Virus record (IMG/VR): IMGVR_UViG_3300025085_000105
Location: 1 to 32,329 of that record
Source of the DNA: a virus
Reading direction: 5' to 3' (one strand)
Length of the DNA: 32,329 bases
Position numbers and translations under genes: made by a program. Below the pieces are notes generated by a model. That model did not search any database. It saw only the letters and a program-made list of their open reading frames with translations, and was not told where the DNA came from. Positions 582 to 27,345 of the stretch are shown one piece after another. Numbering within the stretch: position 1 is the first letter of the stretch; the number at the start of each line of letters is the position of its first letter.

Positions 582-609
582 ATTATAACATACATTTATG
601 AATTAGCAA
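582..609 (-). promoter_or_regulatory. Sigma-70-like promoter for gp55
   Basis: On the minus strand, TTGCTA and a perfect TATAAT are separated by 16 bp. They sit in the 55-bp gap between the oxygenase stop and the gp55 start. A host-type promoter suits a gene that must be made before late transcription can begin. The -10 is strong and the -35 matches only partly. Confidence 0.5.
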
Positions 610-1142
610 TTAACTCCTGTAGTAAAACATATAAGGTTACCTGAAATAGTCGTTCCACTATTTCCTGGCAATACTTGATGAGGCAACCAAGAAGGAAATA
701 GAATCATATTTCCACTTCTCAACTTTGGTTCGTAATCAGTTTGGAACATTTGTGTCGGATGATTTTGATTCCATATGTCTGATTGATTGGGATTTATAAA
801 TTGTGTTTTTGATCTACTGACATCTTCATAAATTATGAAACTCCAATTAGAACCTGGATGTGTATGGTATCCCTGGAAATCAGTCTTCTCATATTTGTTT
901 CTCCATATTCTAACAAATTTTACATAATCAACTTTGCCTGGTATTTCATCAAAACATTCCAGTACTTTATTAGAAAGATACTGAAGAGTATCTACAGGAG
1001 GATTCATTTGATCGCTGGAATCAAAAGTAGTATAAACCTTACTCTCCCATGTTCGTTTATATGGCATTTCAGGAATATGAATCTTTTTCAAGTCAACTTC
1101 AAAGTCGAAAACTGGTACTGAAAATAGGTCATGTTTGTTCAT
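603..1142 (-). CDS. 2OG-Fe(II) oxygenase-like protein (PF13759-like), possibly lacking the 2OG arginine
   Basis: A 179-aa protein resembling the short putative 2-oxoglutarate/Fe(II) oxygenases common in marine phages. H93-T-H95-PGS followed by a hydrophobic strand (NWSFIIY), and later a GNMILFPSWLPHQV segment with H155, give the expected metal-site pattern on a double-stranded beta-helix. The second oxygenase at 18115-18711 shares HTHPGS. In families of this kind an Arg a few residues after the distal His binds 2OG. Here the equivalent stretch (NSGTTISGN) has Thr, so catalysis is uncertain. No clear Shine-Dalgarno precedes the ATG. Substrate unknown. It lies between the Sm-like gene and gp55. 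Confidence 0.75.
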   Translation of the reverse strand: MNKHDLFSVPVFDFEVDLKKIHIPEMPYKRTWESKVYTTFDSSDQMNPPVDTLQYLSNKVLECFDEIPGKVDYVKFVRIWRNKYEKTDFQGYHTHPGSNWSFIIYEDVSRSKTQFINPNQSDIWNQNHPTQMFQTDYEPKLRSGNMILFPSWLPHQVLPGNSGTTISGNLICFTTGVNC

Positions 1143-4471: not shown

Positions 4472-5824
4472 TCACATAAGGTTGGTAACACGTACACGTC
4501 TGTAGTAGACGTTGGTGTTGACGTTGCCAGCGGCGACTGGATCGGAATCGGAAAGGGCAGTGTCACCCTTAGCGAAGGGATTAAGAACCATGCCGTAGCG
4601 TGTCTTAAATCCGATTTTGGGCTGGAAGGTGTCAGGACCAATTGCACGAACCATCTGAAGAGGAACGTAAGGGCAATAGAACAGACCAGCATCATATGCT
4701 GATGTACCTTTGTATCCAGCGATGAAGAACTGAGCAGCGTTAGCGCCCTCAGAAGGAAGTGCCGAATAAGGATCGATGTAAACGCGGATGCGTCCGTTCA
4801 GCGTACCAACGAAGGTGCTACCGGTGTCATCAACATTAAGACCAGTGTTAAGGGCAGGGTTGTAGTCGAGGACTCCAGCCATTGACAGAGCAGAAGCAAC
4901 ATCTGAAGAACAGATGAGCATGTTGCCCTTCCCTCTACGAGTCTCTTTCGCGATGGCGTTCATTTCACGCTCAATTTGGAAGAGAAGACCCTTGAACTTC
5001 TCAACGCTCCAACGTCCATTGGAGTCAACGTCGAGGTCGAAGGTTCCTTGTGTTGCGGTGTTCTGTTGAGCACCAGGCTTAGCGGAACGGAAGACTGTGC
5101 GAACGACTTCTCTGTTGATTTCCGTAAGGATCTCAGCAGAAAGGATGTTAGCAAGTTCAGTCTCAGCGTCAAGACCGTGGATTGCCTTAAGGTCTTGTGC
5201 CAGTTCCAAGCTGTACTCAGCTTTCAGGGCGCGTGACTTAGCAGTAACGGCGATCTTCTCGATCGAGAATGCCATCTCGGGGAATACAGCAGATGCTGCT
5301 TCGCCAAGTGCTTCAGCGGCGGTCGTTGCCATGCCAGCACCAGAAGTGTAAGTACCACTGTCGTTAAGAACGGCAGGGTTAGTTCCGGTTTGTGCAGTAC
5401 CACCAGCAGAGTTGCCGCTATCATAAGCGGTGCCAGACCATGCTTGGTTGACTTCGTTGAAGAATGTCTCAGTACCAGTCTGTGACTCGTAACGTGAGCG
5501 CATTGCGAAGATCAGTCCAGTAGGACCGTTCATGGGTTGAACGCCACAGATATCATAGGCGATCAGGTTAGGCATTGAACGACGGATCAGTGAGATCAGT
5601 ACGGGATCAAAGCCTTGGATGTTGCCACTACCAGTTGTAGCAGTATTGATAGGACCGGCGTTTGTAGGCGATTCGGTCAGCATTCTCTCCTCACGGAGGA
5701 ATTTTTCTTGGTTCTCCAGTAATTGTGAAGTAACGGCTTTCTTGTAACTATCTTTGATCTCGGGGAGATCGCCATGAGACAGAACAGGTGCCCACTTCTC
5801 TTGGAGTTGTTCGGTATTGAACAT
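4472..5824 (-). CDS. 23: Major capsid protein gp23
   Basis: A 450-aa protein (T4 gp23 is 521 aa) that forms the hexameric capsomers of the prolate head. The N-terminal text (LQEKWAPVLSHGDLPEIKD) and the segment RRSMPNLIAYDICGVQPMNG (81-100) with downstream IFAMRSRYE are hallmarks of T4-like HK97-fold capsids. The first ~50 residues are the scaffold-interacting peptide. MLTE at 48-51 contains the (L/I)-x-E consensus for gp21, so cleavage after E51 is likely. It has a good AGGAG ribosome site, an exact TATAAATA late promoter and a strong terminator, so it is essentially monocistronic. GC is high for this window: 33 of 60 bases in 5041-5100. Confidence 0.97.
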   Translation of the reverse strand: MFNTEQLQEKWAPVLSHGDLPEIKDSYKKAVTSQLLENQEKFLREERMLTESPTNAGPINTATTGSGNIQGFDPVLISLIRRSMPNLIAYDICGVQPMNGPTGLIFAMRSRYESQTGTETFFNEVNQAWSGTAYDSGNSAGGTAQTGTNPAVLNDSGTYTSGAGMATTAAEALGEAASAVFPEMAFSIEKIAVTAKSRALKAEYSLELAQDLKAIHGLDAETELANILSAEILTEINREVVRTVFRSAKPGAQQNTATQGTFDLDVDSNGRWSVEKFKGLLFQIEREMNAIAKETRRGKGNMLICSSDVASALSMAGVLDYNPALNTGLNVDDTGSTFVGTLNGRIRVYIDPYSALPSEGANAAQFFIAGYKGTSAYDAGLFYCPYVPLQMVRAIGPDTFQPKIGFKTRYGMVLNPFAKGDTALSDSDPVAAGNVNTNVYYRRVRVTNLM

Positions 5825-16131: not shown

Positions 16132-17279
16132 TAAAAGCTACCAGTAAAATTGCCAAATTCGCCAAACGGATTTACTTCTGTGAAATCAAGAATGTCATCC
16201 GCTTCTGTTTCAAGTTCTCTATTTTCAGAGAAACTATCAGTCATATCGAGAGTATCAAATGAACCTACGGTCCATCGTGCATTTGAATCCGCACCAACAA
16301 TTTCTTCATTTAAATCAAAATTGCCATTCATATAAGCAACTTTTAATGTCCTAGTACTAGGATCATATTCAGCTACTTTACCAACAATATTTGCTGGCGA
16401 TGAATCAATTATAATAGTTGGATCCCAACCAGTGATAGTATCAATATTCCCCTGCGAGTCATAAACAACATCTCCATATATGTATGATCCTTGAGGAGCA
16501 TTAACGGCACTGACTACACCATTGGTGATCGCAGTTGTAGATGAAGTAATGAATGTTCCAGTGGGAGAATACCAAAATGCATTCGGAGCAGTTTCGTATC
16601 TTTCACCACCTGATGTGATAGTAATCGCACCAAGAACTCCATTTGTATCAGCTACTGCGGTTGCAGCAGCATCAAATCTAGTTCCAGAAACTTTTTCATC
16701 TTCAGTAAAGTATCCACTTCCATTGAGGTTCAATAGAATTGGGAATACTCCAGATTCCATTTCAGTGTTATCAATAGAAGTAACGCCAGTATCAAAGATA
16801 CTATCGCCATATTCAAAGACTTCACACGTCAACGTATATGTATATAGACTTCCTAATTGGTAGAAAGGTTTTTGGTTTTCTACATACTTGATTTCAAATA
16901 CAGTTTCATTCAAAGGAAACCATACAAGATCTCCGTCATTAGGTCTTCCAGATACAATTTTATTTGTAGAGACATCTACAAAATCTTGCCACCTTCTTCT
17001 GGAAAGTGTAAGTGTTACTTCATCAGTTACTCGAAGACCAAACTTTGATAGCATGTCACCATTGCCACCAAAATTCTGAAAGTTTTCTAGATACATCTCA
17101 ATGAGATAACTATCTTTAAACTGAGAGTAGTAGATATCATTCCACAACTTATCTTCGTAGATCTGACGAGGAATGTAATAACATTCCAGACCATACATTT
17201 TGATCTGCTCGTCAACCAGATCCTGTACTAGGTTCTGTTCACCCTTAGTTCCTTGTGTAAAATATAAATTTCTAGTCAT
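16131..17279 (-). CDS. 14: Neck protein gp14 with a large inserted region
   Basis: A 382-aa protein; T4 gp14 is 256 aa. Residues 1-165 (GECYYIPR-type start, NDIYYSQFKDSYLIEMYLEN, LSKFGLRVTDEVTLTLSRRRW) and the last ~40 residues (DMTDSFSENRELETEADDIL, then DFTEVNPFGEF) match gp14. Between them residues ~172-340 form an insertion of about 125 aa net. It carries two module types common in marine phage structural proteins: 'NGVLGAITITSGGERYETAPN' and 'KVAEYDPSTRTLKVAYMNG...EEIVGADSNARW'. gp14 with gp13 forms the neck on the portal. The insert may decorate the collar. Confidence 0.92.
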   Translation of the reverse strand: MTRNLYFTQGTKGEQNLVQDLVDEQIKMYGLECYYIPRQIYEDKLWNDIYYSQFKDSYLIEMYLENFQNFGGNGDMLSKFGLRVTDEVTLTLSRRRWQDFVDVSTNKIVSGRPNDGDLVWFPLNETVFEIKYVENQKPFYQLGSLYTYTLTCEVFEYGDSIFDTGVTSIDNTEMESGVFPILLNLNGSGYFTEDEKVSGTRFDAAATAVADTNGVLGAITITSGGERYETAPNAFWYSPTGTFITSSTTAITNGVVSAVNAPQGSYIYGDVVYDSQGNIDTITGWDPTIIIDSSPANIVGKVAEYDPSTRTLKVAYMNGNFDLNEEIVGADSNARWTVGSFDTLDMTDSFSENRELETEADDILDFTEVNPFGEFGNFTGSF

Positions 17280-17280
17280 T

Positions 17281-18075
17281 TTATCCGATCATGTCTAGTG
17301 GTGGTTCTTCTGCTGCTAACCTAAATTCACCAAGAATTGTATCAATTTCTCCTTGTGCGTCTTCGTAGAACTCTCTACCGTTTAGAGTTGTTCCACCAGG
17401 CAGTTGAACGTTCTTGAATTTGATGAGGTTTTGACCCCACTGTCTTTTGATAAGAGCAGTAAGATAACGCTTCATCCATACATCATTATATACTTCGGTA
17501 GCAGTGTCTGGATCTATCATTCTATAGCATTCAATCAAGATCATATCACCACCATTTAACATATCCCAATCAGTATCGAGATATAGTTTATTTTCTCTTT
17601 TATTAAATCTAATCGGTTTGAAGTTGCCGATCACGAAATCAAGTGTTTCTAGATATTGCTTTACCATATAGTAATTCAATATTTCCATAGAACCGAAGTT
17701 ATAGAAATCATTCAAGAATAACTGATACTTCATACTGAAGATATTTCCTGACACTGCTGATGAACTATTGTCATAAGCATATATGTTGGTTATTCCCAGA
17801 ACATGATCTGGTACAGTTATGAAATTATTTTGCTCTTTAAAATCCGAACCAGCAATTGAACCGTTCACTTTCGCGTCGGCAATCATCTGATCGGTTACTT
17901 CTAGTTTTAAAAATGTTTTGACGCTTCCATCAAAATGACGCTCTTGAAAGAACTGAATTGCATCATCTACAAGATCTTCAATCTGATCATCATCTACATT
18001 AATCTCTAGTACTGGGAATCCTAATTTCCTCAGACAATAATCAATTAGCTCCTGGCGTGTCGAGGGTTTTGCCAT
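17281..18075 (-). CDS. 13: Neck protein gp13
   Basis: A 264-aa protein (T4 gp13 is 309 aa). The N-terminal signature TRQELIDYCLRKLGFPVLEINV (5-26) with DDDQIEDLVDDAIQFFQERH is the hallmark of T4-like gp13. A later block (YLTALIKRQWGQNLIKFKNVQLPGG) is also typical. It forms the head-completion ring between portal and gp14. One base separates its stop from... the gp14 start downstream reads TAA-A-ATG in reverse order: gp14 begins after gp13's coding end is reached from the right, so gp13 is the first gene of the neck unit, behind an exact TATAAATA box. Confidence 0.92.
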   Translation of the reverse strand: MAKPSTRQELIDYCLRKLGFPVLEINVDDDQIEDLVDDAIQFFQERHFDGSVKTFLKLEVTDQMIADAKVNGSIAGSDFKEQNNFITVPDHVLGITNIYAYDNSSSAVSGNIFSMKYQLFLNDFYNFGSMEILNYYMVKQYLETLDFVIGNFKPIRFNKRENKLYLDTDWDMLNGGDMILIECYRMIDPDTATEVYNDVWMKRYLTALIKRQWGQNLIKFKNVQLPGGTTLNGREFYEDAQGEIDTILGEFRLAAEEPPLDMIG

Positions 18076-18105
18076 GAATAAAAAAATACCCTAGTTTCCT
18101 AAAGG

Positions 18106-18113
18106 TATTTATA
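18106..18113 (-). promoter_or_regulatory. Late promoter TATAAATA of the neck/packaging unit
   Basis: Exact T4 late consensus on the minus strand, 31 bp upstream of gp13. Confidence 0.75.
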
Positions 18114-18114
18114 A

Positions 18115-18711
18115 TTAACGCAGGGATTTCAAATTTTCAAAAGATAAGTTAAATGAAATAACAATTTTTCTGGCATCTACTTCTTGCTTAGGAACTGAAT
18201 GAACAAAATCCGAATGAAACAGATACATCGTTCCTGGAGTGCATGGCATGGGATATGTATCTGTATTTAATTCAGTGGGTACACTGGGTTGTTCGCAAAG
18301 ATTCCTATGCATATCATAGAAATAAATGTTGTGGGACTCATCTGAATCTAGATAATATGCTCCAGATATTAATGATCCTGGATGAGTATGGGGAAATAAA
18401 TAGTCACCTTTTCCAGAAACATTAAACCACATATTAGTGATGTAGAGATTGTCAGTTAAGAACTCATCATACCCATATTCATATAAAAATTTTGTTGCAT
18501 TTGAAAGTACTTGTTTTGCTAATGGTTTGAAAGATGGTAGTCTATGAATTGTTTGAATAGATCTATGAGAAGATTCTACATTTAATGTACTATTTCTAAC
18601 AGTACCATATGATGATAGTTCTTCAACTTCACTTATCATTGATGGAATATTATCCACACATACATCATCAAACTCAGCAACAATTTTAGGAAATAATTTA
18701 TTTAATTTCAT
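18115..18711 (-). CDS. 2OG-Fe(II) oxygenase (PF13759-like), complete active-site pattern
   Basis: A 198-aa protein typical of the short marine-phage oxygenase family. PHTHPGSLISGAYYL (107-121) supplies H108/H110, GTMYLFHSDFVHSVP (160-174) supplies the distal H171, and R181 in DARKIVISFNLSF fits the 2OG carboxylate-binding Arg. Unlike the related protein at 603-1142, all key residues are present. The substrate is unknown; proposed roles for such phage enzymes include hydroxylation of proteins or metabolites. Stop and start abut the upstream gene (TAA immediately followed by ATG). The DNA is AT-rich compared with the neck genes. Confidence 0.85.
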   Translation of the reverse strand: MKLNKLFPKIVAEFDDVCVDNIPSMISEVEELSSYGTVRNSTLNVESSHRSIQTIHRLPSFKPLAKQVLSNATKFLYEYGYDEFLTDNLYITNMWFNVSGKGDYLFPHTHPGSLISGAYYLDSDESHNIYFYDMHRNLCEQPSVPTELNTDTYPMPCTPGTMYLFHSDFVHSVPKQEVDARKIVISFNLSFENLKSLR

Positions 18712-19032
18712 TTATAAGTCTTGCCTTATTTTAATATCAGTGTTGTCTTCTTTATTTTCTCTATTGCAATCTACAATAAACCAATGTTTTAATGCAGCAA
18801 TATTATCAAATACAGCAACTTGATTTTCAAATTCACACCAAAACCAAATTCCATCAGTTAGTTGCCATCCATTTGGTCTATAAATATCTTCTTCTCTAAT
18901 CAATGGATGAGGTTTATCTTCAACTGCTTCATCATTAGTAATGATCTCAATTACCATGTGTTTGTCTGAACCATGCACTTTCTCAATTTCCTGAACGATC
19001 TCATATAGGGGGATATCCGAAACAGTATTCAT
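18712..19032 (-). CDS. Hypothetical 106-aa protein
   Basis: No function recognised. It is acidic at both ends, with an aromatic core (PNGWQLTDGIWFWCEFENQV, 53-72) followed by DNIAALKHWFIVD. There is no signal peptide or membrane span. It is directly followed, without a spacer, by the 2OG oxygenase gene, so the two are probably co-translated from the CTAAATA box upstream. A partner or substrate-related role for the oxygenase is possible but unproven. Confidence 0.6.
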   Translation of the reverse strand: MNTVSDIPLYEIVQEIEKVHGSDKHMVIEIITNDEAVEDKPHPLIREEDIYRPNGWQLTDGIWFWCEFENQVAVFDNIAALKHWFIVDCNRENKEDNTDIKIRQDL

Positions 19033-19042
19033 CTTGTTATGC

Positions 19043-19050
19043 TATAAATA
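19043..19050 (+). promoter_or_regulatory. Possible late promoter TATAAATA, plus strand
   Basis: Exact late consensus on the plus strand in the divergent gap, 117 bp upstream of the plus-strand island. It may add late expression to the island, or be chance in AT-rich DNA. Confidence 0.3.
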
Positions 19051-19065
19051 TTGGTGAACTGAATT

Positions 19066-19072
19066 TATTTAG
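19066..19072 (-). promoter_or_regulatory. Late promoter box CTAAATA
   Basis: Minus-strand CTAAATA, 34 bp upstream of the 106-aa gene. Confidence 0.4.
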
Positions 19073-19116
19073 CGGGTTCCTAATTATCCCATGTAGGGGT
19101 TATCCGAATTGGCAGG

Positions 19117-19145
19117 TTGACGTGAACTAAATTCTGTATTATAAT
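19117..19145 (+). promoter_or_regulatory. Near-consensus sigma-70 (early-type) promoter of the plus-strand island
   Basis: TTGACG and TATAAT are separated by exactly 17 bp: 5/6 and 6/6 matches to the bacterial vegetative consensus. The -10 ends 22 bp before the first ATG, so the leader would be very short (about 15 nt), with only a weak A-rich ribosome site. It is the best host-type promoter in the window. Confidence 0.8.
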
Positions 19146-19167
19146 CATACCATACATTTAAAAAGAA

Positions 19168-19617
19168 ATGACAGTCAAACTTTGCCTATTAAAAAATCAA
19201 ACAACAATTGTTTGTGATGTTAAAGAAGCTTTGGATAAGGAAGAAAATAAAAGTTTAGGTTATGTAATCACAGATCCATTTACTATTGACTGTGTTAATA
19301 ACCATTTGTCTAATGTTGATCAGGATATGAATATCGAAGATGTTCCTAATCAAGAAGGTCAACTTCAATTTGGTAGACTATTTCCATTATCAAATGAAAG
19401 AAGTTTTAATGTTACGCACGATTTTATTGATGTCATTTATGAACCTCACGCTGATGTGACTAATGCATACCTTTCTATTTTAAGTAAATGGGTTCAGGAA
19501 TATGTTAAAACTCTCAGTCTTGATAATTCATTCTTAGTTCACTCTGATGAAGTTGATGCAAAACAAAATCAAATTTGGAGTGATGTTGCTTCAGGGACAC
19601 CTACAGTAGAGAACTGA
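19168..19617 (+). CDS. Hypothetical protein, Sm-like N-terminal pattern
   Basis: A 149-aa protein, first gene of the plus-strand island. The start (VKLCLLKNQTTIVCDVKEAL, then GYVITDPFTIDC) follows the same 'strand, turn, strand, xxP' layout as the Sm-like protein at 1217-1630. The middle (FGRLFPLSNERSFNVTHDFIDVIYEPHADVTNAYLSIL) resembles a conserved cyanophage small-protein family I know only as hypothetical. It is 2 bp from the next gene, in one operon. Function unknown. Confidence 0.65.
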   Translation: MTVKLCLLKNQTTIVCDVKEALDKEENKSLGYVITDPFTIDCVNNHLSNVDQDMNIEDVPNQEGQLQFGRLFPLSNERSFNVTHDFIDVIYEPHADVTNAYLSILSKWVQEYVKTLSLDNSFLVHSDEVDAKQNQIWSDVASGTPTVEN

Positions 19618-19619
19618 TT

Positions 19620-20531
19620 ATGAAAAATATTCAATCAAAAATTAGATATATAGATAACTTTGGATTTGAAATGTCCGAGGATTCTATGGTTCAGGAAAAA
19701 AGAGTATCTGACTTTAGCTGTTTAGTTATTGATGACTTCTTTGTTGATCCTGAAGGTAGTTTAGAAAATTTACTATCCGTTCCATTTGATACCGGACAAA
19801 AAGTTTTGGAATCAGAATCCAGAAGAGAAGATGAAAAATATGAATTTGTAAAAGCTATGGGCGAAAACCAATTGTTTCACCCAAATATCACTCAGCAACT
19901 AACAATGAATGCCATTGGTATTCTGAAGGAATGGGATTATATTCCAAATGATAGTAATAATCAATCAACTAAAGAAGAATTTGAACAACTTATTAGTAGT
20001 TGTATTTGGACGGGAAACTACTATTATCCCGATATGACAATTAACACTAATAAAGAAAAGTGTCATCCCGGAAATTTTTATATGAATATGAAAGTATTTT
20101 TGGGTACTGAAGATGAAGCACTTGGAAAGAGTGGAGTGTCATTCTACAATTTTTCTTATGAAAATAAAATTTACTATGGAGTAAGGGAATTATTTGAAGG
20201 TATTACAGATCCTGAGGAAAAACGAGAGATTTTAGATTTACTTAATTATAAGTATGTGCCTCAAACCACTACTAAACAATATGAATCTTGGAACGGTGAT
20301 GAATATTTTAATAAACTTATTCATGTCCCAGCAAAATTCAATAGAGCAATTCTTTATCCGGGTAACTGTTGGTATCAGAATACTTATGATAACGTTTCAG
20401 AACACTATCATATTGAGGGATGTTTGAATGTTCCTGCTAAAGAAGACGATGGTTTTGGAAATCAAACTTCAATAGGAAGTCAAATGTCCCGGTCTGATGA
20501 AATGCCAATGGAATTTATTTCATATGATTGA
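19620..20531 (+). CDS. Oxygenase-fold (DUF6445-like) protein with degenerate metal site
   Basis: A 303-aa protein. It has the layout of DUF6445-like 2OG oxygenase relatives: an N-terminal CLVIDDFFVDPE (34-45), a mid-domain strand pair (MNMKVFLG then SGVSFYNF), and late HVPAKFNRAILYPGNCWYQ (235-253). The expected H-x-D appears as H149-P-G151 and the distal His after 'YPGN' is Tyr252, so two of the three metal ligands seem lost. H262 and H264 lie nearby and could compensate. It may be a non-catalytic partner of the next gene product, whose ligands are intact. Family name is from pattern memory. Confidence 0.6.
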   Translation: MKNIQSKIRYIDNFGFEMSEDSMVQEKRVSDFSCLVIDDFFVDPEGSLENLLSVPFDTGQKVLESESRREDEKYEFVKAMGENQLFHPNITQQLTMNAIGILKEWDYIPNDSNNQSTKEEFEQLISSCIWTGNYYYPDMTINTNKEKCHPGNFYMNMKVFLGTEDEALGKSGVSFYNFSYENKIYYGVRELFEGITDPEEKREILDLLNYKYVPQTTTKQYESWNGDEYFNKLIHVPAKFNRAILYPGNCWYQNTYDNVSEHYHIEGCLNVPAKEDDGFGNQTSIGSQMSRSDEMPMEFISYD

Positions 20532-21309
20532 TTTTAGTTACGACAATATACCTAGGTTTAGTGCTGGAGAAATTAAAGAATTAACAGCAATAAATCCTGA
20601 AATGGATATTCAATCTTTTAGAGTAGAAGAACTTGAATATATTAAAGTTCTTAATTTTTTAAAAAATCCTATAGATCTAAGAAATTTTATATCTATTTTT
20701 CCTTCTGAAGATAAAACTAAATCTATACTTGATGGGTCTGATGCTGATAGCAATAGTAGTAGCATGGCTCCTGGTTTTCAGGCACCAGTTCCTGATACAT
20801 TTTTTAAAAGTAATTTATCGATAGCATACTATAATATTCTTAAGCACTATCATATGATAAAGTATGATTACAGTAGAATAAAATGGAATTATTATACTAA
20901 TTGTTGTTATCCTGGTATGCCATCATATTGCGCGAACTATCGTCCACACACAGATCCATTTTCATTCGCTTTAAATTTATTCTTAACTGAGAATGAAGAA
21001 AGTTATACGGATTTTTTTAGATACAAACTTAAAAATAATTCTTATAATTATAGGGGATCTCGCATGAATCTGAATAAGAATCTCATTGAATCTAAAGAAG
21101 ATGATGCTTATAACGATTCTTTAATGAAAGATAAAAAACTAGGTAAATGGATTAGATTTGAGTCAGACGATAAGTATGAACGATATCATTCAGTATCAGC
21201 TGATTTTAATTCTCTTACGATATATAAAGGTGATTTTTATCATAGCATAGGATATGATGTTGATAATCATAAATCTATTAGATATTCTTTGGTTGGCGCA
21301 ATTGCATAA
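20524..21309 (+). CDS. 2OG-Fe(II) oxygenase-like protein (DUF6445-like), intact ligands
   Basis: A 261-aa protein from the chosen ATG at 20524, overlapping the previous stop by 8 bp. An in-frame ATG at 20497 would add nine residues (MKCQWNLFH) but looks like read-through of the upstream gene. YRPHTDPFSFALNLFL supplies H142 and D144, DFNSLTIYKGDFYHSIGY the distal H240, and KSIRYSLVGAI the likely 2OG-binding R253: a full H-x-D...H...R set. A charged AT-rich-coded insert separates the two halves (residues ~155-220). It follows its degenerate relative in the same operon. Substrate unknown. Confidence 0.65.
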   Translation: MIDFSYDNIPRFSAGEIKELTAINPEMDIQSFRVEELEYIKVLNFLKNPIDLRNFISIFPSEDKTKSILDGSDADSNSSSMAPGFQAPVPDTFFKSNLSIAYYNILKHYHMIKYDYSRIKWNYYTNCCYPGMPSYCANYRPHTDPFSFALNLFLTENEESYTDFFRYKLKNNSYNYRGSRMNLNKNLIESKEDDAYNDSLMKDKKLGKWIRFESDDKYERYHSVSADFNSLTIYKGDFYHSIGYDVDNHKSIRYSLVGAIA

Positions 21310-21339
21310 AAAAAGGAGGGGTAACCCTCCATTTTTTTT
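21308..21339. terminator. Bidirectional terminator
   Basis: A 6-bp stem GGAGGG/CCCTCC with loop GTAA has eight T after it on the plus strand and seven A before it, so it can end transcripts from either side. It separates the plus-strand island from the convergent 89-aa gene. Confidence 0.85.
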
Positions 21340-21354
21340 GTTTATTTTATAAAC

Positions 21355-21624
21355 TTATTCAATTGACTCTGATGCTGGTGCATACTTGTTCCAGATAATA
21401 GCAATTGCTTGCATTTTTTCTTTATTGAAGTCAGATGGTTTTGCACCACTGAATTGATGTCTCAATCCATTTTCTAATACTTTAGCAGCATAGTAAGATT
21501 GTAATGCTGCTTCATCACCTTCAGCATAGTTCCAGTCAATCGCTTTAACAGCTTCTTCATAAGCGGCAAGTGTCGCAGCCTCTGGTGCCTCATTTAGAGG
21601 CACTTCGATTTCGTTTTGTGGCAT
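21355..21624 (-). CDS. Hypothetical 89-aa acidic helical protein
   Basis: No function recognised. It is Ala/Glu-rich and predicted helical (AATLAAYEEAVKAIDWNYAEGDEAALQSYYAAKVLENGL in two helices around residues 16-54), with a C-terminal QAIAIIWNKYAP. There are no cysteines or membrane segments. It has an AGGAGA ribosome site and starts 18 bp after the 1900-aa virion gene. That proximity suggests a small tail-fibre accessory or chaperone, which is inference only. The convergent terminator lies 16 bp past its stop. Confidence 0.6.
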   Translation of the reverse strand: MPQNEIEVPLNEAPEAATLAAYEEAVKAIDWNYAEGDEAALQSYYAAKVLENGLRHQFSGAKPSDFNKEKMQAIAIIWNKYAPASESIE

Positions 21625-21642
21625 GTTAGATTTCTCCTAAAT

Positions 21643-24600
21643 TTATGCTTGTGATTCCTGCCAGGTAACTCTAGCAGATACTGAATATGGGTTTGTAACA
21701 CTAACACCTGTTGAGTCAACGATGTTAGCAACGATACAAAGTAGGTCAGGTCCGTTGGGGAAGACTCCATCACCACCAAGGATTGAGTTACCCAAGTCAC
21801 TCAGTTTCGTGAGATCATATTCTGTTGAGAATGTGTTACCATCTCCAGAACCAGATGCTCTGAATGAAAGAATCTTAGAACCACCTGTAATAATATCGTT
21901 AGGACCATGCTTAACGAGTTGGCAGAGGGAAGGTTCATCAACATTCTGGAATTCATCTGTTGAAAGTTGTGGGTTCAGTACCAATGATAGTTCCGTCTCA
22001 TGTGTAGTTAGAATACCAACAGAGTCAAGTTTAAGTTGCATTCTGTTGATAATTTCACGTTCTCCGAGAGCACCAGTAATTGAAGAGTCAACTGAAGGTG
22101 CCAGTCTGATTGAAATCAGTGGGATGTTATCAGGAATAATGTTATCAACACCAGCAGGGGCACCGATATTCATTGTTGTTCCTGAAGGAACGGCAGGATT
22201 TCCTAATGCATTGTTAATTGCACCGGCATAGTTATATGGGAATACAGTTGCAGTTCCTTCTACATATTGAATTGCAGCTTCATAGTTGCTACCGCTGACA
22301 CGAGACTTGGAGTCAATTGGTCTACCTTCTAAGAAGTAACCATTAGCAACAGTATTCTCATAGATCAATGTGTTAATTGAGAACTTAGATGCTTCACTAG
22401 ATGGGAAACGCATGATGAGATAGAACGTTCTGTTCCACCATGTTCCTTGATAATAGGATCTCAGGAAAGTATTTTGGCTGGTAGAAGAACTTTCAGCAGT
22501 AGCATTTGTATACTTCTGAACGTTGCCTGATGCCGTAAACAGATATGCTTCGTCATCTTGCATTGTACCATCCATGATAACTGAAGTACCCCAGTGGAAC
22601 AAGGTTCCGACATATGTTGGTGAAGTGAAGTTAACTACTTCATAACGAGCAGGCAAGTTACCTGAACGGAAGTAAGATTCAGTCAAACGGTTATTGTGCT
22701 TGAATTCATGAACGTACTTAACATGACCTTCCTGATCTTTAAATCCGAAACGGATCTTACCAGCACCATACCAAGAGTAATCCATATAGCACATCTGAAT
22801 TCTATCAAGATTCAAGATGTAACCAGATGGACCATCGCCATCTGCTCTATCAATATTCCAATTTTCTTTCGCTACTACAGTATTAATAGTCTTAGTACAA
22901 ATAACGTCAGTACCAGTAACACCACGGTAAGCAGGTTGGATAGTAAGTTGAGTATTGCTAGCAATCTTAACAACTTGATATGTCATTCCGCGAATAACAA
23001 GATGTTCGCCAACAGCAACTTGAGATATGAACGATGTATTGGATCCAGTAACAATCTGACTGGAGTTTGTTACAGAGACAGTTCCAGGAAGTTGCTGTAC
23101 TGAAGATCTTCTAACACAATTAAGTGTCGTGCCGTCATATTCAAAGTAGAAACCATTTTGGTCGTCAAACATACCAGCACGGATTGAACAATCGGTCCAG
23201 GCAACAATAGATACAGTAGTGAATCCACCACCAACATCCTGAGTAGGTTGTGCTGGGAGAATATATTTGAATGTAAAGTCATCTACAAGAGTGTAAATAT
23301 CTGCTGTTACATTAAATCCGTCAACACTACAATCTTTGACTGTAACTTGAACATCAGATTCAAACTGGTGTGGTTTCGTACAAACGACAGTAGCAAGTTC
23401 AACTTTATGGAATGTGATTGTACCAGCAGTGATACTACCCGTACAACTTGTACTCATTTCCAGAGTTGTTCCATCAACGATTGCAACGATTCTGGAATTA
23501 CTTCCAAGACCAGGTTCTCCTGTGCCAATTTGTCCTACTGTCAAACCGGTTGTATCATTAACAGTCAATGTTGATTGACCTTGTGCCATCGAAGCACCTG
23601 TTACTACTGTAGTAGTTCCAAGGGGAGTATACGAAATTGTTTGAACTGGAACTTGAGGAATGAAGTTAATAGCGAATGAAGTCTGAATACCTTTACCTGA
23701 CTGATAACGGAAATACTTACGAGTCTGTCTAGAAATTCTAGAGTTAGGTGACTTAGAAGTACCGATTTCCATACCACCGTCAAATGGTCTGTGGAGATAG
23801 AATCCATCAGGTCTTACATAGATGTAAGAAGGAATCAGGTAGTTGAGTCCAGAGTTACTGAAGTCATATGGTGTATCAACCAACATATTATCATCATCAG
23901 TAATTGCTGTGACTGTCTTCTCGACAATTACACCAGGTGTAGTAGCATTATTGACAATTCTCAGTTTATCACCGATCTTATAGAATCTCTGGAATGCAGC
24001 ATTGGTTCCAACAACAAGTCTACTAGTTGCTGTAACTTCTACTGTGCCGGTTCCAGAAACCTGACCGGACATACTAGCACTAATGAATTGATGTGATTCA
24101 CTAGATCCGGGCTGAGATGTGAGAGTAACTACATTATTCGCGATGGCATTTGCCAAGCTTGTTGCTAGTTGGAAGATATTGTTATCAACAACAACAACAA
24201 AGTAATCAGCACCATCAGTCAATCCACCAATGGGTGTTCCTCCCTGAGCGTCATAAATGACTCTTGTTCCAGTAGAGAAATAGTGATTATTGATCGTGAC
24301 ATAATCATTAGCAATATCAACATTTGAATTTGCATCAAAACCTTTCAGTGCAGGTGGAATCTTGAATGGAATTGTTACAGCAAGTTTGGTATCATTAACT
24401 GCCTTGGTAGTTGTATATGAACCATCAGTTGTACCGAAAGCAGCGGTTGTATTCTCGAATGACTGAAGTCCAGTTCCTTTACTAGTGAAGTCAATTTCAT
24501 TAGAATCACCAATGTTTGCAAGCAGTTGGAATCTATTAGCATCAACAATTCTTACATAGTAAGAACTTCCAGAAGTAAGTCCTGCAATTGGCGCTGCACC

Positions 24601-27345
24601 AACTTGATCATATCTCAAATACTCATTATTTGAGAATTGGTGTTCGGAAACAAAAACTGAGTTTTTGAATGGTGATGTAAATGTACCGGAAAGTGCAGGA
24701 GCGCCTGTTACAGCTGCTAATCTAATGATGTTATTCCCACTATCCTTCAAACGAATTCTATTACTATCAATTTTTTCTGCAGTAATAGTTGTTCCGTTTG
24801 TAAGTTGGTTTCTAGTAGCATTACTACCACTATAGAAGTGAATATCACCACTAGTACTATCTAATGTATAACTGTGTCCGGTTTCCGCAAGGTGATTTTC
24901 TTTATAGATCGAATCATTTGTGGTAGTATTTTGCTTACCAAACATGATATACATGTTGGTCCCACCGTCACTGGTGTTAGATCCAAATCTTCTATCAAGA
25001 GTATATCCTCTACCATTTTGATGATACCAGAAGAAGTAGTTGTTACCACGCATTCTGATGTATGGGGAACTTCCAGTATTCACATAATCAATATAGAAAT
25101 TAGATGTCCAGTAGTAAGGATTTCCTACACCGGCAGGACCATTGCCCCCATAAGCACCAACCCAATATGAATTACTGTAACTACTGTTACTAAAACCATT
25201 ATGCTGAGTATCAGTCAACATATCATAATTTCCCTGGAACTGAGCAGATGTGCCTAGTGGGAGACTAGTAAGGTTGTATCCATATGTTTTCCAGAATGTA
25301 CCGAAGAATCTGAACCATGTATCGCAATATCTGAAGCGATCAGAACTATTATTACCACCGGCATGACTTCTGCTCTGAGAGAAGAAAATCGTTCTATCCC
25401 AGTTCTGATTTCCTAAACCATATTGATTATTTCTTAAGTCATAACCAGAGTATGTAGAACCAAAGTTATTATAGTAAGGGTAGTAATAAGTATACCAATT
25501 ATTATAAGTTTTACGCTCTCTGTAGATATTATATACTAGTCCAAGATTATGCTTACCGTGTGTAAATGAACCACCTACACTAAGGTTCTTCAGATAACTT
25601 GCCTGAACTCTCATCGAATCATATAATTCGACAGTATTATCATCAATTTTTTTGACATAATAAACTGACATTCTGCTCAGTCCACCAATAGGAGTGTCCC
25701 CTGGATTTGGATAGTACAGTAATGAATAACCAGTTTCAAGATTATGACCGACAATGGTAATTCTATCTTGACCGTAGTCAATATCTGCTTCTTCAAATCT
25801 TAATGTATATGTAGATTCGATATTATATGGATCTGTTTTAGTAATATCAGGTGTGATAACATTAGTAAATGTATCATCATCTGCAACTGTAGGCTCACCA
25901 TCTTCTGCAATTGCAGAACCATCTTGAATATCAAAGATCTTGGGAGAAACTGTATTAACAAAGTAGAAATTAGTGTTATCAGCAAAACCATGTTCTGCAG
26001 ATGTTGTTAAGAATACTTTGGATGTAGTTGTAATAGATGTTGTAATATCACCACCCATTCCAGAGTGTACTCCACAATAGTAGTACAAGTTAGCTGGTGT
26101 ATTATAATCAAAGTAAATTCTTACATAAGCGCCAGGAGTTCCTTGAGTTCCGTGCTTATAAACAAACGTTGTATATTCAGTACCACCATCATGAGTACCA
26201 TTAGAAGAAGTACTAAATTCAAATGGGTGAGATCCTATAGATAAATCAGATACATCAAAAGTATAAATTGCTTTCTTAGCAAGACTTAATGATTCTTGCT
26301 GAACATAACTCTGATCGTTATACTCAGTACCTTCTGCTTCACTTGAGTTAATGAAGAATTTGTTGCTTGCTCCTACAGCTGTTGTAACAACAACATCAAT
26401 TTGATTAGATGATAGTGTGTCACCATCCTGAGGATTGGATTGCGTGATAGAATTGAACCAGACATAAACGTCATTTCCATCAATGCGTGAAATAAGTCCT
26501 TCACCGCCGCTATCAATACTAATACTATCCTGTAAGTTCCAACCACTAGGAACTGATGGTAATGTAAATTGCCATACTTGATAAACTTTAACGCGGAAGT
26601 TGTAAAGTTCACTTACAATTCCTTGTGATTCATCAAGAGCAATTTGAGAACCTTGGAAGAATTTACCTGGAATAATAGAAGTATAAGTACCCTGAAGTTC
26701 TCTACTTACAGGTTGTGTTGCCCTACACTTAAATGTAAATGTTGTAGTAGTTGGTACTGACTGGATTAAATAAGTACCTTCTGCAGTAGTAGAAGAAAGA
26801 CCAGTTACTGTAATTGGAAGACCAGAAGTAAGACCATGGTCGAAACTAGTAGTAACAGTAATTAATTCACTATCAGCAAATGATTCTACTTTTGTGATAA
26901 ATGAAATGGTAGTATCAGAAGAAGACGAATAGAACGAAGGGATGTTGTTAATCGTCTGTAGAGTTTCCCACTTAGATGCTTGAGGACCGTACTCAAAGTC
27001 AGTATCAATCAGGTTTTCTGGGTTCGAGACTCTGAACTTTGAAACAGCGTCAACAAAAGTTTCAGAAGGTTCGATACTTACATATGGTTTATCATAGAAA
27101 ATTTGCAACTTATCCGAAGCGGACATCGTAGCACAACTACATGATAAGACAAACTCAGTTTCTTCTGTAGTTTGATTATAGGTAGCAGATTCTAGACCAA
27201 GAAATTGGTCTGAGAAAATGTAAATCGGTGTATTGTCAGTAATGTTTGTGATAAGCAGAAGCTTTTCTGCTTTAATATTACCAGGAATCTTTACAGTGTT
27301 TGTAGAAGGTTCAAAGGTATAATAGGTAACTAATTTCTTTGCCAT
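21643..27345 (-). CDS. Giant 1900-aa virion/tail-fibre-like protein with cupredoxin-like and repeated beta domains
   Basis: Large beta-rich protein, probably a virion-surface or tail-fibre component. Visible parts: unique head (1-110); a 'FDHGLTSG' module (~160-210) echoed at ~1315-1362; a cupredoxin-like module (359-432); three related modules with 'Y-D-x-x-GGTPIGGLT-x-G-x-x-Y-V-x-x-V/I-D-x-N-x-F-x-L' at ~525-580, ~895-950 and ~1010-1068; an unusual Tyr/Asn/Gly/Trp-rich stretch (606-800); two 'GTNAAF...IGDKLRI' modules (1098-1166, 1421-1480); and a unique C-terminal ~400 residues. It follows the tropism-domain gene. The modules recur in marine T4-like structural proteins. The receptor is unknown. 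Confidence 0.8.
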   Translation of the reverse strand: MAKKLVTYYTFEPSTNTVKIPGNIKAEKLLLITNITDNTPIYIFSDQFLGLESATYNQTTEETEFVLSCSCATMSASDKLQIFYDKPYVSIEPSETFVDAVSKFRVSNPENLIDTDFEYGPQASKWETLQTINNIPSFYSSSSDTTISFITKVESFADSELITVTTSFDHGLTSGLPITVTGLSSTTAEGTYLIQSVPTTTTFTFKCRATQPVSRELQGTYTSIIPGKFFQGSQIALDESQGIVSELYNFRVKVYQVWQFTLPSVPSGWNLQDSISIDSGGEGLISRIDGNDVYVWFNSITQSNPQDGDTLSSNQIDVVVTTAVGASNKFFINSSEAEGTEYNDQSYVQQESLSLAKKAIYTFDVSDLSIGSHPFEFSTSSNGTHDGGTEYTTFVYKHGTQGTPGAYVRIYFDYNTPANLYYYCGVHSGMGGDITTSITTTSKVFLTTSAEHGFADNTNFYFVNTVSPKIFDIQDGSAIAEDGEPTVADDDTFTNVITPDITKTDPYNIESTYTLRFEEADIDYGQDRITIVGHNLETGYSLLYYPNPGDTPIGGLSRMSVYYVKKIDDNTVELYDSMRVQASYLKNLSVGGSFTHGKHNLGLVYNIYRERKTYNNWYTYYYPYYNNFGSTYSGYDLRNNQYGLGNQNWDRTIFFSQSRSHAGGNNSSDRFRYCDTWFRFFGTFWKTYGYNLTSLPLGTSAQFQGNYDMLTDTQHNGFSNSSYSNSYWVGAYGGNGPAGVGNPYYWTSNFYIDYVNTGSSPYIRMRGNNYFFWYHQNGRGYTLDRRFGSNTSDGGTNMYIMFGKQNTTTNDSIYKENHLAETGHSYTLDSTSGDIHFYSGSNATRNQLTNGTTITAEKIDSNRIRLKDSGNNIIRLAAVTGAPALSGTFTSPFKNSVFVSEHQFSNNEYLRYDQVGAAPIAGLTSGSSYYVRIVDANRFQLLANIGDSNEIDFTSKGTGLQSFENTTAAFGTTDGSYTTTKAVNDTKLAVTIPFKIPPALKGFDANSNVDIANDYVTINNHYFSTGTRVIYDAQGGTPIGGLTDGADYFVVVVDNNIFQLATSLANAIANNVVTLTSQPGSSESHQFISASMSGQVSGTGTVEVTATSRLVVGTNAAFQRFYKIGDKLRIVNNATTPGVIVEKTVTAITDDDNMLVDTPYDFSNSGLNYLIPSYIYVRPDGFYLHRPFDGGMEIGTSKSPNSRISRQTRKYFRYQSGKGIQTSFAINFIPQVPVQTISYTPLGTTTVVTGASMAQGQSTLTVNDTTGLTVGQIGTGEPGLGSNSRIVAIVDGTTLEMSTSCTGSITAGTITFHKVELATVVCTKPHQFESDVQVTVKDCSVDGFNVTADIYTLVDDFTFKYILPAQPTQDVGGGFTTVSIVAWTDCSIRAGMFDDQNGFYFEYDGTTLNCVRRSSVQQLPGTVSVTNSSQIVTGSNTSFISQVAVGEHLVIRGMTYQVVKIASNTQLTIQPAYRGVTGTDVICTKTINTVVAKENWNIDRADGDGPSGYILNLDRIQMCYMDYSWYGAGKIRFGFKDQEGHVKYVHEFKHNNRLTESYFRSGNLPARYEVVNFTSPTYVGTLFHWGTSVIMDGTMQDDEAYLFTASGNVQKYTNATAESSSTSQNTFLRSYYQGTWWNRTFYLIMRFPSSEASKFSINTLIYENTVANGYFLEGRPIDSKSRVSGSNYEAAIQYVEGTATVFPYNYAGAINNALGNPAVPSGTTMNIGAPAGVDNIIPDNIPLISIRLAPSVDSSITGALGEREIINRMQLKLDSVGILTTHETELSLVLNPQLSTDEFQNVDEPSLCQLVKHGPNDIITGGSKILSFRASGSGDGNTFSTEYDLTKLSDLGNSILGGDGVFPNGPDLLCIVANIVDSTGVSVTNPYSVSARVTWQESQA
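26050..26271 (-). other. Cupredoxin-like domain inside the 1900-aa protein
   Basis: Residues 359-432. They begin with AIYTFDVSDLSIGSHPFEFS and end with LYYYCGVHSGMGG. H373, C424, H427 and M430 follow the type-1 copper order (His, then Cys-x2-His-x2-Met) of blue copper proteins. The 'YYC-x-x-HSGMGG' ending is recurrent in cyanophage virion proteins. Copper binding is inferred. Confidence 0.6.

Follow-up and report, generated by a model that had tools for sequence, protein, structure and literature searches.

Three genes transcribed against the late genes of an uncultivated T4-like phage are exchanged between relatives together with one class of the adjacent giant structural gene, fib. By profile and predicted structure they appear to encode an Sm-like (LSm) protein and two proteins related to the 2-oxoglutarate (2OG)-Fe(II) oxygenases, one of which has lost its active site. 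The island (I1-I2-I3, 19168–21309, + strand) lies in a window of 32,329 nt, the whole stretch of viral DNA analysed here, whose closest named phages are cyanomyoviruses (identity of ~71 % for gp23, ~64 % for gp20 and ~55 % for gp13). Accessory genes of late clusters are mostly filed as loose cargo; here an operon is tied to one structural-gene class. The reading we prefer, with slightly less than even confidence, is that of a hydroxylase operon with an early promoter, exchanged with fib, in which I3 would modify a protein and the fib product is the favoured candidate.

Layout and transcription signals

The island is flanked on one side by OG5 and u106 (then gp13) and on the other by u89 and fib. 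The divergent neighbour u106 (18712–19032, − strand) accompanies the island in every case in the locus comparison and matched no Pfam or PHROG family; OG5 (18115–18711, − strand) is a 2OG-FeII_Oxy_5 oxygenase gene (Pfam E 1.1e-14, phrog_81). Between the island and fib lies u89 (21355–21624, − strand), a small fast-evolving gene. The giant gene itself (21643–27345, − strand) encodes a virion structural or fibre-like protein of 1900 aa, with matches to phrog_5838 (virion structural protein) and phrog_1980 (tail fiber protein). That three genes run against the surrounding late genes had been proposed from a sequence-only reading of this DNA and was confirmed: I1 (19168–19617, 149 aa), I2 (19620–20531, 303 aa) and I3 (20524–21309, 261 aa, or 270 aa from an upstream ATG at 20497) are + strand ORFs opposing late genes on the − strand. 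Their packing is operon-like, with the I2 start 2 nt past the I1 stop and the I3 start within the end of I2. On a related contig of 132.5 kb (L103) the island is the sole clear + strand cluster amid ~100 kb of − strand genes. An Rfam search of the window returned no family.

A sigma70-type (early-type) promoter, TTGACG-N17-TATAAT, precedes I1 at 19117–19145 (+ strand) and is the only 11/12 match within 17000–23500. Sites of at least 9/12 occur in that interval at chance level (32 found, 30.2 expected), and in an AT-rich window a single such sequence is therefore no proof of a promoter. In 15/15 representatives of the related islands, TTGAC[AG]-N17-TAnnnT starts at positions −50 to −53 relative to gene 1, sites of at least 10/12 occurring in the background at 0.25 per kb per strand. 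In the larger set the 110 nt preceding gene 1 contain a site of at least 10/12 in 44/44 islands. Upstream of the other genes the same site was found for I2 in 2/45, I3 in 1/45, u106 in 2/44, OG5 in 3/27, u89 in 0/32 and gp13 in 0/40. An apparent loss of the promoter in one lineage (L007) was rejected as an alignment artefact, TTGACA-N17-TACATT being found at −53. Judged by this conservation the match upstream of I1 is not a chance one, and the promoter named in the sequence-only reading is real. Like the early genes of T4-like phages, the island has a host sigma70-type promoter, and I1-I2-I3 very likely form an operon with early expression signals.

In T4-type phages early promoters are of the sigma70 type, and the late motif reads TATAAAT (PMC3037559). 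A motif of the late type, TATAAATA, which the sequence-only reading does not mention, reads into the island from 19043–19050 (+ strand); on the − strand of the window the late motif stands a few tens of bases before several late genes. It is present upstream of 26/44 islands; the lineages that have it show it between −81 and −85 relative to gene 1, 30 nt upstream of the sigma70-type promoter, and across five aligned lineages ATAAATA is invariant with variable flanks. In the window it lies at −124, owing to a 40-nt insertion missing from relatives. Of the early expression that had been suggested, the conserved sigma70-type promoter supports the early component; given the late motif upstream, expression is likely to be early and, in most lineages, also late, rather than purely early. 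The late motif is near the u106 start, and its conservation could in part reflect the u106 leader.

The insertion (19074–19116, ~40 nt) lies downstream of the late motif and ahead of the sigma70 promoter, is missing in all relatives and contains a sequence nearly identical to GGGGATATCCGAA at the u106 start (19009–19021 and 19096–19108). It looks like a recent local duplication.

The bidirectional terminator also proved to be as described: an intrinsic terminator stem at 21315–21330 scores on both strands and would be common to the island and the convergent u89 transcript. Most relatives have a terminator in the same place, with stem sequences that differ yet stay complementary. In one island clade, which has a fourth gene, there is no hairpin directly after I3. 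This fourth gene (L216 1474–2016, L220 7346–7894, L223 7298–7840, L228 7449–8021 and L232 7432–7983) encodes a small protein resembling 2OG oxygenases, which has an HxD...H...R pattern, a weak Pfam match to 2OG-FeII_Oxy_3 and a PHROG assignment, phrog_274, labelled DNA endonuclease V.

An LSm protein and a pair of DUF6445 proteins

I1 matches phrog_431 (E 1.3e-16), and DUF6561 was matched weakly in 11/16 members of the I1 family. Searched against the PDB, the I1 profile matched TIP60 (E 0.00037), a cage designed by fusing a pentameric LSm protein (PMC10374429), as well as 3by7 (E 0.0095); phmmer searches of the PDB with a single I1 or I3 sequence gave nothing useful. The similarity to a solved LSm protein, though modest, places I1 among the LSm proteins, and it probably forms an RNA-binding LSm ring. 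By profile it is a recognizable member of the cyanophage LSm family (3by7; DUF6561/phrog_431), a relative of which in S-CAM22 sits just upstream of the DNA polymerase. Unlike that family, I1 is located in a putative hydroxylase operon and not in the replication region, and has a C-terminal tail past the LSm domain. Three further LSm-type paralogues are present in the replication region on two contigs of the group. The L103 contig carries four LSm-like proteins besides I1 (L121 17037–17595; L122 1877–2203 and 7942–8352), and two of its LSm paralogues adjoin a putative DNA polymerase gene.

I3 belongs to DUF6445 by Pfam, and I2 scores at the cut-off for the same family. The two are homologous (HHalign 99.9 %) and are split in the tree by one branch with support of 92/97; on this topology the pair is the product of one ancient duplication. 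The I3 model (pLDDT 90.9) is predicted to be a double-stranded beta-helix, with a Foldseek probability of 1.00 and top matches of the types P. putida P4H and other 2OG hydroxylases. VIA-align superposed it on OGFOD1 (Z 13.8, rmsd 2.9, 174 aligned) and on the mimivirus lysyl hydroxylase (Z 13.8, rmsd 2.7, 164 aligned), and the I2 model (pLDDT 78.3) on OGFOD1 (Z 13.4, rmsd 3.3, 182 aligned), OGFOD1 being the best VIA-align match for both. Foldseek TM-scores of ~0.4–0.5 make the fold class clear but do not settle the substrate class. Both proteins, on these predicted models, almost certainly have the 2OG-oxygenase fold.

The active sites of the two have diverged. In I3 the motif is intact (HTD...H...R in the window), with HxD, the distal His and Arg present in every I3 sequence examined, and the protein is likely to be catalytically active. 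In I2 of the window, HxD/H/R is replaced by HPG/Y/H and the HxD...H triad is absent. The I2 site has been lost in most lineages; the full set is present in L239 and L244 and is mostly kept in L098, so the ancestor of I2 was probably active. A reading of I2 as a 2OG-dependent halogenase (HxG) was rejected: the window has Tyr in place of the distal His, and HxG is not conserved among I2 proteins. Compared with two close relatives, dN/dS is 0.19–0.21 for I2 and I3 and 0.24–0.28 for I1. The dead paralogue is thus under purifying selection, and I2 may well serve as a pseudoenzyme partner.

OGFOD1 and Tpa1 have tandem 2OG-oxygenase domains, one an active and one an inactive double-stranded beta-helix, which is an arrangement that I3 and I2 resemble. 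Unlike in OGFOD1/Tpa1, the pair here is encoded by two separate genes, the dead one first, with an identity of ~12 %; the comparison covered the fold. The P4H of P. putida, the mimivirus L230 lysyl hydroxylase and the chlorella virus vCPH share the fold and the HxD...H...R (or K) layout. Unlike these, I2 and I3 fall in DUF6445, a family without a curated Pfam function, and no collagen-like substrate was found among the proteins scanned. The 2OG-Fe(II) oxygenases of cyanophages (phrog_81, T4-GC 104 and others), of which OG5 is one, are of the same superfamily; I2 and I3 differ from them in their DUF6445 membership, in their divergent placement with a promoter of their own and in the inclusion of a putative pseudoenzyme. 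A further 2OG-FeII_Oxy_5 oxygenase gene is located at the opposite end of the window (603–1142, − strand).

Co-inheritance with fib and base composition

Loci were gathered by a scan with the fib C terminus, independent of the island, which took over from gp13-based scans that had yielded few group members. The resulting 80 loci are redundant; of the island-bearing loci whose genes are complete, 31 are >3 % apart in I3. The island is present in 46/46 loci with the window's fib class and in 0/34 with other fib classes, and gene order is identical in all complete island-bearing loci. In island-less loci fib is followed by gp13 within ~60–750 nt, apart from L283–L285, in which gp13 is absent within the fetched flank. 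The comparison of the gp13-to-fibre interval suggested in the sequence-only reading thus did reveal absence of the island, in 34 loci, yet the absence is not sporadic and follows the fib class. In three island-less loci of another fib class (L250, L254 and L272) a late-strand gene of ~80 aa lies between fib and gp13; TTGACA-N17-TATAAT stands before that of L254.

Two clades of the gp13 tree each contain both island-bearing and island-less phages. Three phages (L257, L259 and L260) have a gp13 of the window's clade, no island and adjacent flanking genes, the distance from the fib end to the gp13 leader (late motif and hairpin) being 60 nt. Their fib is of another class, which argues for block replacement rather than simple insertion. 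Within gp13 clade A, Mantel correlations with fib were 0.77 (I1), 0.86 (I2) and 0.87 (I3), and with gp13 0.04, 0.03 and 0.05, respectively; against the fib N terminus, I3 reached r 0.95. Likewise, L008 and L094 have identical gp13 sequences and share only 39–49 % in I1, I2 and I3. Island divergence tracks fib and not gp13, and therefore fib, u89, the island and u106 are exchanged as a block, with OG5 where present; OG5, which not all members have, co-varies with the block in Mantel tests. The breakpoint of the exchange is near the gp13 leader.

At the nucleotide level the island matched none of 50,697 phage records, and tblastn against the phage collection gave none for I2 and one distant match for I3; no cultured phage in the collection thus has a recognizable island. 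A profile search of genome contigs with I3 yielded no relative, and hence no host from that source. psbA was not found in the first nine contigs searched. A near-complete island-bearing contig of 177.7 kb (L224) has psbA/psbD-type genes, which supports cyanophage identity. In the tail/baseplate region of the L103 contig (L125 1–12450) is a giant protein of >4000 aa with many glycine-rich stretches.

The island has 30.4 % G+C, and of all 2.1-kb stretches of the window the one that holds it is lowest in G+C. The sequence-only reading had described a sharp drop in composition, and its counts of 8 and 14 of 60 in the island and 33 of 60 in gp23 are exact; its yardstick, however, is itself the outlier, and the flanks of the island are equally low. 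By gene, G+C is 28–32 % in the island, 31–32 % in OG5 and u106 and 50 % in gp23. Parity between island and flanks holds across lineages, only the highly expressed structural genes being richer. Among the genes listed, gp23 (4472–5824, − strand), at 50 % in a window of 38 %, is the strongest compositional outlier. In close relatives, the island and its neighbouring genes have equal dS. AT-richness as a sign of recent acquisition was therefore rejected, with flanks equally AT-rich and dS equal to that of neighbours. The sequence-only reading had named universal conservation with the composition of the core genome as counting against it; the island is in 46 of 80 loci, and its composition is like that of the flanking genes.

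Proposed function and alternative readings

In the preferred reading the host polymerase would transcribe the island from the start of infection and then again late. I3 would hydroxylate a Pro or Lys side chain of a protein with the help of Fe(II), O2 and 2-oxoglutarate, I2 would persist as a partner without catalytic activity or as a subunit that holds the substrate, and I1 would assemble an LSm ring, probably binding RNA. The target would be the co-inherited fib protein, modified during its accumulation; this assignment is conceivable and somewhat doubtful. Physical linkage by itself could produce co-inheritance with fib, a sigma70 promoter is early for the modification of a late protein, and in the proteins scanned no Gly-X-Y tract of the collagen type with many Pro or Lys residues was found. 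We consider it unlikely that the full system of live enzyme, dead paralogue and LSm ring is a mobile module for post-translational protein hydroxylation, both inherited with and acting on one fibre class, by which receptor-binding machinery would pass between cyanophages jointly with the enzymes that modify it. The LSm and 2OG-oxygenase-type proteins do indicate that, as had been suggested, the role of the island is probably other than virion assembly.

A host-translation target is the main possible rival to fib. Here I3, with I2, would hydroxylate EF-Tu or uS12 during early host takeover, the LSm ring would bind RNA of host or phage, and fib would be linked passively. The strictly conserved sigma70-type promoter, the LSm partner gene and the several LSm paralogues of these phages, two beside a putative DNA polymerase gene, would fit such a role, as would the fold matches of I3 to P. 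putida P4H, which was solved with EF-Tu, and to OGFOD1/Tpa1, the PDB title of Tpa1 naming Rps23 modification. That the island goes without exception with one fib class, and does so in two gp13 clades, would, however, be unexpected; the late motif is conserved too, and identity to the translation hydroxylases is ~10 %. We would give takeover through translation only a minor chance of being correct. Cyanophages often have several 2OG-Fe(II) oxygenases, for which roles in 2OG/nitrogen balance or DNA repair have been proposed (PMC3037559), and two more, OG5 and the gene at 603–1142, are in the window. The commonness of these enzymes in cyanophages (PMC3037559) would be in keeping with generic cargo whose substrates are small molecules or nucleic acids and which is unconnected with the virion or with translation. 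Yet the best structural matches of both models are protein hydroxylases, the maintenance of an inactive partner by purifying selection suggests that a complex acts on a macromolecule, and the island is linked to fib; generic cargo is accordingly held to be improbable.

The sequence-only reading saw in the island the design of a moron. T4-like phages are lytic; the morons of lambdoid phages are self-contained promoter-gene-terminator units in a late structural cluster. Like these, the island has its own promoter and terminator and is absent from relatives in which the flanking genes abut, and to that extent the comparison stands; its low G+C would also suit cargo of foreign composition that was acquired recently and moves on its own. 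Unlike lambdoid morons, however, the island is in a T4-like phage, always at the same site and in the same gene order in all carriers, and moves as a block with an adjacent structural gene rather than as a free-standing unit. Its composition is not foreign, OG5 and u106 being equally AT-rich, and with dS equal to that of its neighbours it is old. The claim of acquired, independent cargo was not borne out, and a classic moron is very improbable.

The preferred reading, a hydroxylase operon exchanged with fib, offers a testable lead on the substrate, as island and fib are swapped against a common gp13 background. If the fibre is the substrate of I3, phage-encoded hydroxylation of a protein would be tied to host recognition; with host translation proteins as its substrates, a new takeover route would result. 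The analysis also provides a concrete active-site prediction for DUF6445 and describes DUF6561 as LSm-like, and it suggests that the labels of phrog_1644 ('minor coat protein') and phrog_274 ('DNA endonuclease V') are misleading for these members. Within the set of papers searched there was none on DUF6445, or on a prolyl hydroxylase together with a phage tail fibre. In favour of the preferred reading, a gene with an S74-peptidase domain in phage Sf-FS3 is directly followed by a gene of DUF6445 and another for a 2OG oxygenase.
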